DNA of 64,000 nt, from the NCBI RefSeq assembly GCF_003003795.1, contig NZ_PVWK01000123.1:37638-101637 (forward strand). The letters are read 5' to 3'. The position numbers were made by a program, and so were the translations under genes. Each line of letters opens with the position of its first letter. Within the stretch, counting starts at the first letter, position 1. Shown piece by piece: positions 21,601 to 24,059 of this stretch. The notes below the pieces were generated by a model that was not told the origin of the DNA, searched no databases, and was given only the letters and a program-made list of their open reading frames with translations. The DNA is from Stenomitos frigidus ULC18. GTDB taxonomy: Bacteria > Cyanobacteriota > Cyanobacteriia > Leptolyngbyales > Leptolyngbyaceae.

Positions 21601-21635
21601 CCTGTACCTCGCAGATAAGACGATGTTGTAGGGCA

Positions 21636-21825
21636 ATTCGGCAGGCGTTCTGACTTAAAGAGTGTTAAGTGTTCGTTTCTAACCTTCGAGTTGGACTAAC
21701 TCAAAGCTCAAAACTCAAAACTCAAAACTTTTTTCACAGTTGCGGGACAGCGGTAGAATCGCACTACACTTTCCCTGTTACCTCCGACGGTTGCTCCCCG
21801 TCAGAACCGAGTCGTGGACTCAGCA
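21636..21825 (-). promoter_or_regulatory. Cobalamin riboswitch upstream of cbiMNQO
   Basis: Read on the reverse strand, the core contains GGTTCTGACGGGGAGCAACC, then GGTAACAGGGAA, then CCGCTGTCCCGCAACTGTG, and finally AAGTCAGAACGCCTGCC close to the cbiM start. This order matches the adenosylcobalamin-class aptamer (P3-P6 core including the B12 box). It lies about 35 bases before cbiM, so cobalamin binding should reduce cobalt uptake by blocking translation or transcription. The region between CAACTGTG and AAGTCAG is lengthened by heptamer repeats. Confidence 0.9.
21697..21731. repeat. TTTTGAG heptamers inside the cobalamin riboswitch
   Basis: On the reverse strand, GTTTTGAG units follow each other four times (last ones degenerate: GCTTTGAG, TTAGTCC). 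They lie in the variable peripheral part of the aptamer between CAACTGTG and the CCTGCC box, outside the ligand-contacting core. Confidence 0.8.
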
Positions 21826-21871
21826 TACATGATTAGTAAGATCTTAGAAACGTTTGCAAGGGAGTTCTGCC

Positions 21872-22276
21872 TCAGATGTTACGGCTGAAGTTTTTGCCGC
21901 ATTTGAAGTGCATAGTGCTCCTTGGTTTTTCCTTGTCTGAGGTAGAGTGACGCTGCTTGCTGGCAATCGGCGCTTCCAGATGGATGGGAGTGAACGCGGC
22001 CTCAGTCGAGGCTGCTTTAATGAGTGGAACCTCGACTGGTGAATCAAACAAACGTGCAATGAACGTACGCAATAACCGAAAAGGTTCTTCACCGGGGATT
22101 GTTGCCGCTGTTTCCATCATTTCTTTGGCGTCATACATGATGCCGTGAGTGGAATATTCCAGAAAAATCACCAGATCCATCCCCGGCAATCCAACCTTCA
22201 TTCCATCAATCATTAAGGCAATCTTGTGACAATTCTCAATGACTTCTGCATTGTGTGCAGGCGCGGCATTTTGTAG
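21872..22276 (-). pseudogene. Aliphatic amidase / formamidase (nitrilase superfamily) remnant
   Basis: The open frame reads [20 protein letters not shown], then [20 protein letters not shown] and [18 protein letters not shown]. This is the N-terminal part of amiE/amiF-type amidases, including the E-Y-S catalytic glutamate (with F-L-E-Y where F-P-E-Y is usual) and the T-I-P-G-E-E strand. After that the family sequence stops; the remaining 55 codons are unlike an amidase, and a stop precedes the frame at 22277. The intact enzymes are about 340 residues. It is a decayed fragment. Its left part contains no other recognisable domain. Confidence 0.7.
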
Positions 22277-22319
22277 TTAGCCATAGTTATAAGACTACCC
22301 ATCTCGTCCGATCGGGTAC

Positions 22320-22348
22320 TTGACTCAACCTGAAGCCTCTGTTAGCTT
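22320..22348 (+). promoter_or_regulatory. Candidate promoter for the aroF leader
   Basis: TTGACT (22320-22325) is followed after 17 bases by TAGCTT (22343-22348), a passable sigma-70 type -35 and a weak -10. It would start RNA near 22355, about 40 bases before the first leader ORF. Placement is by eye and is consistent with the attenuator layout downstream. Confidence 0.4.
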
Positions 22349-22395
22349 CAAAGAATCGAGAGCAATCTCTCAACTATCTCAGCAGGTCTTGGCAA

Positions 22396-22452
22396 ATGGC
22401 GAGCGCTAGCTTTTTCTTTTATTTTTGGTATCCATCGGTTCACCTGGAGTGA
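22396..22452 (+). CDS. Leader peptide 1 of the DAHP synthase gene (aromatic-rich)
   Basis: An 18-codon ORF, MASASFFFYFWYPSVHLE, ends with TGA at 22450-22452. Codons 6-12 are Phe-Phe-Phe-Tyr-Phe-Trp-Tyr: seven aromatic residues in a row, far above chance. CAGGT lies 8-9 bases before the ATG as a possible ribosome site. The end of the ORF (codons 14-18) is the 5' arm of a 13-bp stem with 22474-22486. This is the layout of a ribosome-mediated attenuator such as pheL or trpL. Too short for gene finders; function inferred from composition, position and structure. Confidence 0.85.
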   Translation: MASASFFFYFWYPSVHLE

Positions 22453-22486
22453 CGACCGTTCTTGATGAACGCGTCCAGGTGAACCG
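22436..22486 (+). promoter_or_regulatory. Antiterminator hairpin 1
   Basis: CGGTTCACCTGGA (22436-22448) is perfectly complementary to TCCAGGTGAACCG (22474-22486). The 5' arm overlaps the last codons of leader 1; the 3' arm overlaps the first three bases of terminator 1. A ribosome that reaches the leader stop would cover the 5' arm and favour the terminator; one stalled on the aromatic codons would leave it free. Confidence 0.8.
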
Positions 22487-22509
22487 CAGAGACAACTCTG
22501 CGGTTTTTT
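22484..22509 (+). terminator. Attenuator terminator 1
   Basis: CCGCAGA (22484-22490) pairs with TCTGCGG (22497-22503) around GACAAC, followed by six T (22504-22509). A classic factor-independent terminator 200 bases before aroF, and with no gene upstream that needs it on this strand. Confidence 0.85.
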
Positions 22510-22556
22510 CGTTTTAAGTTCTTGTGAGAAAGCAGAAAGAGAGACCGAAAAAAGCA

Positions 22557-22619
22557 ATGGCATCGTCAATGAGTTGGTTTTACGGCTTTTACTTTTGGAC
22601 CAGGCACTGTTCCGGGTAA
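22557..22619 (+). CDS. Leader peptide 2 of the DAHP synthase gene (aromatic-rich)
   Basis: A 20-codon ORF, MASSMSWFYGFYFWTRHCSG, with TAA at 22617-22619. Seven of the eight residues 7-14 are aromatic (W-F-Y-G-F-Y-F-W), covering Trp, Phe and Tyr. It starts MASS, like leader 1 (MASA). GAGAG upstream may serve as a ribosome site. The last codons (GTTCCGGG, 22609-22616) can pair with the 5' arm of terminator 2. It sits between terminator 1 and terminator 2, so it is the second of two tandem attenuators. Confidence 0.85.
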   Translation: MASSMSWFYGFYFWTRHCSG

Positions 22620-22653
22620 AGTCTGTTGCGCCTTCGTTCGTACAGCCCGGAAC
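22609..22653 (+). promoter_or_regulatory. Antiterminator pairing 2
   Basis: GTTCCGGG (22609-22616) is complementary to CCCGGAAC (22646-22653), the main part of the 5' arm of terminator 2. It duplicates the terminator's 3' arm, so the two structures exclude each other. A ribosome on the leader stop codon at 22617 would mask it, leaving the terminator to form. Confidence 0.75.
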
Positions 22654-22673
22654 CTAGAGGTTCCGGGCTTTTT
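22644..22673 (+). terminator. Attenuator terminator 2
   Basis: AGCCCGGAACC (22644-22654) pairs perfectly with GGTTCCGGGCT (22659-22669) around TAGA, followed by a T-run ending at 22673. It stands 38 bases before the aroF start, so it can only act as a conditional stop for that gene. Confidence 0.9.
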
Positions 22674-22710
22674 GTTTGCAATCACATCATCAAACTTTAG
22701 GAGTAGTCTC

Positions 22711-23574
22711 ATGTTAGATGCCCGGTTAGTCAAGAAGTCTCATGCCAACCATCGCACCGTTGTACAACTGTCTGAACAGGTGGCGATCGGTGGCAGTACT
22801 GTTATCGTAATCGGTGGCCCCTGTACGGTGGAAAGCGCTGAGCAAATGGAGCAAGTCGCCAGTCAGTTAGCAACGGCTCCCATTCATGCTCTGCGAGGCG
22901 GTGTGTACAAACCACGCACCTCTCCCTATGCGTTTCAGGGGATGGGTGTGGAGGGGCTGCGCATTCTGGCAGAGGCACGATCGCGCTACGGAATGCCTGT
23001 GGTGACAGAGGTGATGTCGATCGCCCAAATGGCACCGGTTGCGGCCTATGCCGATATGCTCCAGATTGGCAGTCGCAATATGCAAAACTTCGAATTGCTG
23101 AAAGCGTTGGGGCAAGCAGGCAAGCCCGTGTTGCTAAAACGGGGACTCTCAGCCACTATTGAAGAATTCGTGATGGCAGCAGAATACATCATGGCGCATG
23201 GTAATCCCCATGTGGTGCTGTGCGAACGCGGCATTCGGAGCTTCGACACCTACACCCGCAATGTACTGGATCTGGGGGCAGTTATCGCCTTGCGTCAGTT
23301 AACCCATTTGCCTGTCATCGTAGATCCCAGCCACGCAGCGGGTAAGCGCGAACTGGTTGCCGATCTCGCAAGAGCCGCTGTTGCCTGTGGAGCCGATGGC
23401 TTGATTGTTGAATGCCACCCTGAGCCTGACCAGTCTGTATCGGACGCGCGCCAGGCTCTTTCGTTAGAGGCAATGGTGGCTCTAGTGCATAGCCTGGAGC
23501 CGATCGCACGGGCAGTGGGACGCACCTTGAGCAAGGATAGTCTTGCGGAGCCAAAGCAGTTGGTTACGGTTTAA
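22711..23574 (+). CDS. aroF: 3-deoxy-7-phosphoheptulonate synthase (DAHP synthase, class I beta, short form)
   Basis: A 287-residue AroA-I-beta (AroF/AroG Bacillus-Thermotoga type) enzyme joining phosphoenolpyruvate and erythrose 4-phosphate, the first step of the shikimate pathway. Motifs: G-G-P-C-T-V-E-S (metal Cys), Y-K-P-R-T-S-P-Y-A-F-Q-G, K-R-G-L-S-A-T, E-R-G-I-R-S-F-D, D-P-S-H-A-A-G-K-R (metal His) and E-C-H-P-E-P-D. The catalytic barrel starts almost at the N-terminus: the ferredoxin-like feedback domain of longer homologues (about 340-350 residues) is absent. That suggests an enzyme not inhibited allosterically, which fits control by the two upstream attenuators instead. ATG at 22711 with TAGGAG 8 bases upstream. 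Confidence 0.93.
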   Translation: MLDARLVKKSHANHRTVVQLSEQVAIGGSTVIVIGGPCTVESAEQMEQVASQLATAPIHALRGGVYKPRTSPYAFQGMGVEGLRILAEARSRYGMPVVTEVMSIAQMAPVAAYADMLQIGSRNMQNFELLKALGQAGKPVLLKRGLSATIEEFVMAAEYIMAHGNPHVVLCERGIRSFDTYTRNVLDLGAVIALRQLTHLPVIVDPSHAAGKRELVADLARAAVACGADGLIVECHPEPDQSVSDARQALSLEAMVALVHSLEPIARAVGRTLSKDSLAEPKQLVTV

Positions 23575-23750
23575 AGCGAGGGTGCTTGAACAAGCAACCG
23601 GTTTTCTGGAGCAGCGTATGCCTCTGCAAGTATCTACAAGAAACGGGGTTTTGAGCCCAGCAGCGCTAATGTAGGCCATGCCTGAACGCTGCCGTAGATG
23701 TTCGAGTGCAGAAAAACCGGGCACACTAAGCTAACTCCACTGGTTTTCTT

Positions 23751-24059
23751 ATGCGCCCTCAACTCTCACAAGGTCAGATTCGCCCTCAAATCAGCACGAT
23801 GCCTCGCCAAAAAACTGAGGCCGCTGCTTATCTGGACATCTATAAGCTAGTGAACGAGCGGACACGCTTACAGAAAGAATTGGAATCACTCAGTGAGCGG
23901 CGCGATCGCGTTGAAAAACGCCTGGAAGTCTTAAACAGCGAAGTGGCAAAGCTTGAGATCACGGCTCATCAGTTGCGTGATGGGGTGCCCTTGGGGAAGG
24001 CGATCGTCCAGCCGCCAGCAAAGCCAGAGGACTTCAATACCTTTTTGTTTGAATACTAA
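23751..24059 (+). CDS. Coiled-coil protein resembling gas vesicle protein GvpV
   Basis: A 102-residue protein with a basic, proline-containing head, then T-E-A-A-A-Y-L-D-I-Y-K-L-V-N-E-R-T-R-L-Q-K-E-L, a long heptad coiled coil (about 30-75) and the ending F-N-T-F-L-F-E-Y. From memory this order (TEA-A-YL-x-YKL, coiled coil, NTF-x-EY tail) matches cyanobacterial GvpV, a minor gas vesicle accessory protein. No other gvp genes are in the window, so it is either an orphan or a family member with another job. An inner start at MPRQKTEAA is possible. The match needs a profile search. Confidence 0.55.
   Translation: MRPQLSQGQIRPQISTMPRQKTEAAAYLDIYKLVNERTRLQKELESLSERRDRVEKRLEVLNSEVAKLEITAHQLRDGVPLGKAIVQPPAKPEDFNTFLFEY

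Follow-up and report, generated by a model that had tools for sequence, protein, structure and literature searches.

In the trp and pheA (and pheST) leaders of Escherichia coli, as proposed for the locus described here, codons for the end product lie within a leader peptide and the ribosome sets which of an antiterminator and a terminator forms (PMC11802643). An attenuator with Phe-Tyr-Phe codons in its leader, aroR, precedes aroF, a DAHP synthase gene, in Corynebacterium glutamicum (Neshat et al. 2014, as relayed in PMC11802643), and the uORFC-13-1 motif before aroF in Acholeplasma is outlined as a predicted uORF with Phe codon(s), a terminator and a promoter (PMC8632094). The mgtCBR leader of Salmonella is described as containing a pair of short ORFs, each of which acts on transcription (PMC3641672). 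Here we describe a locus in a 64,000-nucleotide stretch of the genome of Stenomitos frigidus ULC18, referred to below as the window, in which we confirmed that two leader ORFs, each with a hairpin pair, lie in series before a DAHP synthase gene (Table 1).

Table 1. Features of the leader region and DAHP synthase gene in the window (positions are those of the window).
Feature	Position	Strand	Evidence and details
Promoter-like site TTGACT-N17-TAGCTT (extended -10 TGt), conserved	22320–22348	+	Pattern across loci
Leader ORF 1, MASASFFFYFWYPSVHLE	22396–22452	+	ORF list; ATG start in 72/74 loci, 18 codons in 56/74
Antiterminator hairpin 1	22436–22486	+	Arms 22436–22448 and 22474–22486; 5' arm coincides with the 3' end of leader ORF 1
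Intrinsic terminator 1	22481–22509	+	Stem 22481–22506 (22481–22491 with 22496–22506) plus U tract; pattern scan, covariation
Leader ORF 2, MASSMSWFYGFYFWTRHCSG	22557–22619	+	ORF list; ATG start in 66/75 loci
Antiterminator hairpin 2	22609–22653	+	Arms 22609–22617 and 22645–22653; 5' arm coincides with the 3' end of leader ORF 2
Intrinsic terminator 2	22644–22673	+	Stem 22644–22669 (22644–22654 with 22659–22669) plus U tract; pattern scan, covariation
Short-form DAHP synthase of the aroF type, 287 aa, with PF00793 (catalytic) as its sole domain	22711–23574	+	Pfam, structure matches

The preliminary description had placed the two leader ORFs at the positions given in Table 1, and the ORF list agreed exactly. 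Both terminators were recovered by a pattern scan, for which the same region after shuffling averaged 2.2 such sites. The hairpins of each pair had also been presented as mutually exclusive. This was exact for pair 2, in which all 9 nt of the antiterminator 2 3' arm lie inside terminator 2, and only partly so for pair 1, in which the overlap is just 6 nt; the minimum-energy fold kept antiterminator 1 beside a terminator 1 shortened to 6 pairs. The aromatic codons of leader 1 span 22411–22431 and its antiterminator arm starts at 22436, and those of leader 2 (with one Gly among them) span 22575–22598 with the arm starting at 22609. Because the 5' arm of each antiterminator is the end of a leader ORF, a ribosome that reached the stop codon would cover the arm. 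An obvious ribosome-binding site was absent from the leader start sites, as judged by reading, and this was counted against an attenuator model.

A contig scan for homologues gave at least 80 homologous loci, 76 of which had readable upstream DNA; L016, L036 and L030 (upstream DNA too short) and L070 (a run of N) were left out. Among the 76 readable loci of those listed, leader 1 was found in 73 and both leaders in 70. Leader 1 was absent from L035, L066 and L067, and three further loci (L060, L063 and L069) held a leader-2-like ORF with a displaced stop and stand outside the 70. For L005, which a stricter scan missed, the leader-1 stop was set by hand.

The upstream windows of the 80 homologous loci (up to 700 nt each, 54,267 nt in all, one strand) contained 153 aromatic-run ORF ends, of which 144 were followed by a terminator-like hairpin, compared with 74 such ends and one hairpin in control sequence from the same loci (764,088 nt, both strands). 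Phe, Tyr and Trp all occurred within the last 16 codons of leader 1 in 72/74 loci and of leader 2 in 73/75. Where sequences departed from the commonest codon in the aromatic columns, the replacement still encoded one of these three residues in 60/72 cases for leader 1 and 109/134 for leader 2, these being counts of sequences and not of independent events. Under the genetic code, two of the nine single-base changes from a Phe or Tyr codon, and none of the nine from TGG, give Phe, Tyr or Trp. The MAS start that the two leaders of the window share was not conserved in relatives. One leader had been proposed to have arisen from the other, and that derivation, in either direction, was rejected: among the leaders compared, the window alone has MAS in both, and elements 1 and 2 have arms of different sequence.

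The pattern TTGACn-N16-18-TAnnnT was present within 150 nt before the leader-1 aromatic run in 72/74 loci and in 0/74 control windows. Before leader 2 it was found in 0/75 loci, and a second promoter between elements 1 and 2 was rejected on that count. Since the promoter-like site precedes leader 1 only, both elements would lie on one transcript. A stricter sigma-70 scan of the surroundings of this site (21800–23800) returned 0 promoter sites; its second hexamer, TAGCTT, agrees with the consensus at 3/6 positions.

To describe the distribution of the layout we used a sample of 291 genomes of the class Cyanobacteriia, of which 247 had some DAHP synthase match and 106 had the type of enzyme found in the window (E no higher than 4e-111, corresponding to roughly 62% identity and above, a cut chosen after the list had been seen and which excludes the fragments in G003, G059 and G261). 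The element-1 model (R2) matched 108/291 genomes and the element-2 model (R1) 95/291, with one match per genome. All 106 genomes with this enzyme type had at least one element and 101 had both, 89 by the models and 12 by reading. The other 17 genomes were read, and showed both leaders in 12, leader 1 alone in four and leader 2 alone in one; leader 1 only was recorded for G010, G045, G081 and G093, and leader 2 only for G230, L066 and L067. Wherever gene and element were both matched, the element was on the same contig and strand as the gene match, element 1 ending 105–365 nt before it (103/103) and element 2 ending 15–177 nt before it (92/92).

At least one element was present in 111/291 class genomes, five of which (G059, G109, G128, G261 and G116) had an element and no full match of the enzyme type. 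In the first four of these the gene is cut by a contig end or lies on another contig. In the fifth, G116, a degraded DAHP synthase remnant lies directly behind element 1 (L123, G116:C48:71500-75000), and the genome keeps DAHP synthase paralogues that belong to the other type. At the thresholds applied, both the gene type and the elements were missing from G084, a genome of the same genus as the window. In genus g88 and the neighbouring g81 (L138–L142 and L152–L156), leader 2 has drifted to NWYYGFFYTTGSGLW and similar sequences, and its arm pair, missed by model R1, has been re-made (GGGTCAGG / CCTGACCC). The search for element 1 in the class of G301 gave 0/18 genomes, an empty answer that shows nothing about that class.

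Model R2 also matched 36/289 genomes of another class in the phylum. All 36 belong to the family that contains Candidatus Obscuribacter (f51) and represent 19 genera; at least one genome of the family (G363) was without an R2 match. By reading, the 40 element-1 loci in the family included 33 with two leaders and five with one leader (L188 with a remnant of the second). A DAHP synthase match was located downstream of element 1 in 37 of the 40, and L169 (at a contig end) and L179 had element 1 but no such match. In a 59-protein tree, with several deep forks left open and a very long outgroup branch, the cyanobacterial enzymes formed one clade (99/97) placed among the rows of this family, a placement that fits either common descent or an old transfer.

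Three genomes of this family, all of genus g202 (G414, G415 and G428), each carry two leader-bearing DAHP synthase genes (L191–L196). One copy has Tyr-run leaders, such as MSARRYYYYYPNEVHPQ and MLMTQSYYYYRRMLRGSPR (L191), and the other has Phe/Trp leaders, such as MRNFGFFFWFTEVHLG (L194), with which we compared leader MRNFGYYFWFTEVHLG from a genome having a single element-1 match (G445, L184). The exceptions were a Phe before the Tyr run in leader 1 of L193 and one Tyr in leader 2 of L192. Importantly, both leaders switch amino acid type together in these two-gene genomes, and the pairing of Tyr-run versus Phe/Trp leaders fits what codon-specific sensing of charged tRNAs would produce. As the codon swap is confined to one genus, it perhaps represents one event. 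By Pfam, the gene behind the Tyr-run copy codes for a chorismate mutase in L191 and for a chorismate mutase fused to prephenate dehydrogenase in L193, and that of L195 looked like these counterparts by reading. Some genomes of the family with a single copy (L165 and L185) likewise have a chorismate mutase-like ORF behind the gene, so the operon alone is no mark of the Tyr copy. ORFs of 398–429 aa make up the Phe/Trp copies, of which that of L194 is a DAHP synthase-chorismate mutase fusion (Pfam).

A separate occurrence of tandem Tyr-run leaders with this design was observed in G394 (L189 / L205, G394:C20), before a PF05141 gene (PvcA-like isonitrile synthase) and a PF02668 gene (TauD family). 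These genes resemble a secondary-metabolite cluster that would use tyrosine, and the opening of such a cluster by Tyr shortage would be puzzling.

Base changes in the proposed stems were assessed in alignments A1 and A2, from which exact duplicates were removed and, for A2, also L077 and L081. Both-side changes were found in 11/17 pairs of antiterminator 1, in 5/11 pairs of terminator 1 (first set) and in 6/11 pairs of terminator 2. The pair-type number for terminator 1 was reached by 238/500 shuffles and is thus not above them. In antiterminator 2 both-side changes occurred in 3/9 pairs, matched by 40/500 shuffles, and 93.3% of cells were paired; its covariation score and double-change cell count were above all 500 shuffles. 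A second set of 65 loci, which includes the window and some records of the first set, gave both-side changes in 19/22 pairs for antiterminator 1 plus five terminator pairs, and in 7/10 for terminator 1; the alignment of this set was fitted to the model and so leans towards it, and the shuffles ignore relatedness. In L074 a single change could be followed across all three strands (GGTTC to GGCTC / GAGCC / GGCTT). In these alignments covariation was seen in the stems, weakly so in antiterminator 2.

Inside antiterminator 2, between its arms, columns 54–57 and 81–84 of A2 belong to a conserved GCGTCATG-like stretch that is possibly an inner stem of 4 pairs. Support for this putative stem was weak, with 72.3% of cells able to pair.

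The layout before short-form DAHP synthases in relatives and the covariation of the stems were among the checks that the preliminary description had put forward, and both were positive. Along with the Tyr-run versus Phe/Trp leader pairs, they support its reading of the elements as aromatic attenuators.

To consider how a ribosome might set the fold, an equilibrium model was applied to loci in which antiterminator and terminator share at least 3 nt (73/74 for element 1 and 69/75 for element 2), leaving out the one element-1 and six element-2 loci with a smaller hairpin overlap. For element 1, the basal terminator pairs had a mean probability of 0.22–0.43 while the A site was at codons -14 to -9 (0.43 at the first of these, 0.22 at the last); it was 0.53 at -8, 0.94 at -7 and 0.90–0.94 from codon -7 on. 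This jump at codons -8/-7 would place the switch point of element 1 at the end of the aromatic run. In the model, the terminator was already favoured when the ribosome stood at -8/-7, where the aromatic run of leader 1 ends, which we counted against the attenuator reading. The antiterminator of element 1 was the more stable hairpin in 73/73 loci. The trp leader of E. coli includes a protector hairpin as an additional structure. If no translation took place, read-through of element 1 would be expected, in contrast to trp, and this was likewise counted against the attenuator model. For element 2 the trend was weaker, with a mean terminator probability over 69 loci of 0.55 at codon -14, 0.82 at -7 and 0.97 at the stop; its antiterminator was the more stable hairpin in 55/69 loci and not in the remaining 14/69.

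The ribosome covers up to 12 nt downstream of a stop codon (PMC4833913). With about 12–13 nt covered past the A site, the antiterminator 2 arm would stay wholly or almost wholly exposed whichever aromatic codon of leader 2 the ribosome stalled on, and a stall on the last two codons of the leader 1 run would cover part of the antiterminator 1 arm.

Based on these observations, we regard it as highly probable that the locus comprises two ribosome-mediated transcription attenuators in series before the DAHP synthase gene, which RNA polymerase could pass only upon a stall at Phe, Tyr or Trp codons. When charged tRNA is plentiful, a ribosome that has run to the stop codon would cover the 5' arm, the terminator would form and transcription would end. 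If any of the three charged tRNAs were short, the ribosome would wait 7–14 codons before the stop and leave the arm free, so that the antiterminator would form first and RNA polymerase would read on. With two terminators to get through, the gene would have low basal expression and a steep induction.

In the window itself, the terminator of element 2 was favoured at every ribosome position (probability 0.91–0.97 in the equilibrium model). As terminator 2 of the window wins everywhere at equilibrium, a switch there would have to be kinetic, depending on the order in which the hairpins form. As modelled, this terminator bias is the main weak point of a two-gate arrangement for this genome. It favours the alternative that only one element works in the window and that its partner is either a relic in decay or a partial terminator that acts constitutively, as does the finding of some genomes with leader 1 alone or leader 2 alone. 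We consider this unlikely, as both elements were retained in 101/106 class genomes and in 33/40 loci of the Obscuribacterales family, and in the two-gene genomes a change of amino acid type affects leader 1 and leader 2 alike.

The leader peptides themselves are strongly kept in Cyanobacteriia (SYFYFWF..VHRE for leader 1 and SWFYGFYFWPR.SSG for leader 2), with an internal Gly in run 2 in 53/75 loci and a Pro after the last Trp in 49/75. The TnaC peptide responds to tryptophan in the ribosome tunnel, and the constancy of the peptides would be expected if they too acted in the tunnel, arresting or releasing the ribosome on a free aromatic metabolite and not through slow decoding. However, residues in the runs swap among Phe, Tyr and Trp, the C-terminal residues follow the RNA arms, and the leaders of the two-gene genomes are of either the Tyr-run or the Phe/Trp kind, which is unexpected for a fixed arrest peptide; sensing by the nascent peptide is thus very improbable. 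The leader RNA of trp acts in trans in Sinorhizobium, and terminated leaders would be abundant here, yet the proposal that the leaders are small functional proteins, or that the terminated RNAs act in trans as small RNAs, has hardly any likelihood despite a fairly constant ORF length (18 codons for leader 1 in 56/74 loci, 20 codons for leader 2 in 40/75), given that the covarying antiterminator arms overlap the ORF ends and that the link to one gene is strict.

The enzyme encoded behind the proposed serial attenuators offers a possible context for them. For the DAHP synthase of the window, the alignment with 1rzm began only at residue 70, and the best matches were 1vs1 and 4grs. A paralogue in the same genome (C47, 353 aa) has a ferredoxin-like domain (PF18152) and aligned with 1rzm over nearly its full length. 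The ferredoxin-like domain mediates feedback by aromatic amino acids in the DAHP synthase of Thermotoga; our literature search on this domain found nothing. The domain that is missing from the window's enzyme and present in the paralogue is probably regulatory. A leader on the paralogue was rejected because no aromatic-run ORF end occurred within 500 nt upstream. As the short-form enzyme is without the domain of its paralogue, the RNA probably replaces allosteric feedback. The role of the attenuators would then be RNA-level feedback on this DAHP synthase, and the prediction is that the enzyme would be made only when Phe, Tyr and Trp run short.

Four other aromatic genes of the same genome were also considered as carriers of the device. 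It was rejected for a PF00800 gene and three PF00425 genes, as no aromatic-run leader or terminator-like site was present in the 400 nt before the first Met of each.

Taking the two classes together, we lean, with some reservation, towards a broader scenario in which a doubled, codon-programmable aromatic sensor replaced the allosteric domain of DAHP synthase early in the phylum and is common to the oxygenic Cyanobacteriia and the Obscuribacterales. After gene duplication its specificity would have been split between Tyr and Phe/Trp by codon swaps in both leaders at once, and the Tyr-run version would have been carried to the PvcA-like isonitrile-synthase cluster.

If it works as proposed, the layout operates in over a third of the class genomes sampled (111/291 with at least one element) and suggests how cyanobacteria that use an enzyme without a regulatory domain control entry into the shikimate pathway. 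It would also be a deregulation target for the production of aromatic compounds. Why two gates are kept in series is a question that such tandem leaders, which share their codons, make testable, and the two-gene genomes can be viewed as natural codon-swap mutants of sensor specificity.

Assignment of the element to a known RNA family was rejected, with no Rfam match over it at gathering score. No T-box riboswitch was matched in Rfam, and a lax scan of 22280–22760 gave three weak matches, none of them a T-box; the weak matches, such as that to the trpB motif (19.8 bits against a cut-off of 59), looked like chance. The one Rfam entry to reach gathering score in the window was a cobalamin riboswitch (RF00174, 44.5 bits) at 21623–21826 on the minus strand, preceding a minus-strand operon that, judged from ORF sequence, resembles a CbiM-type transporter. 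Our searches of an open-access library, which leaves most subscription journals outside, listed no paper recognisable by title and abstract as describing the element in cyanobacteria or Obscuribacter.

Comparison with the described systems indicates which parts of the locus are familiar. The parts of a trp/phe-type attenuator were found in the sequence and its covariation, these being an aromatic-rich leader ORF, an intrinsic terminator and an antiterminator that shares a strand with the terminator. That the ribosome position would decide the hairpin agrees with the equilibrium model for element 1; for element 2 there was a weak mean trend across 69 loci and none in the window. In contrast to trp and pheA of E. 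coli, which have one leader, one terminator and one amino acid, there are two full modules here covering all three aromatic amino acids, and the gene predicted to be regulated is the common first step. The aroR attenuator belongs to another phylum and has one leader described, which reportedly answers to Phe and not Tyr, with no Trp named (PMC11802643). The uORFC-13-1 motif, compared here by its description, is presented in PMC8632094 as one uORF with 24 representatives, only from Acholeplasma and environmental sequences, and no second module is described there. The two ORFs of mgtCBR answer to different signals (ATP and proline) and are called a singular example (PMC3641672), whereas both modules here carry the same three codon types, each with a terminator of its own. 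Together, these comparisons place the mechanism among known kinds, those of trp/pheA and aroR, and its doubled, three-amino-acid, retunable form in this phylum appears to be new.
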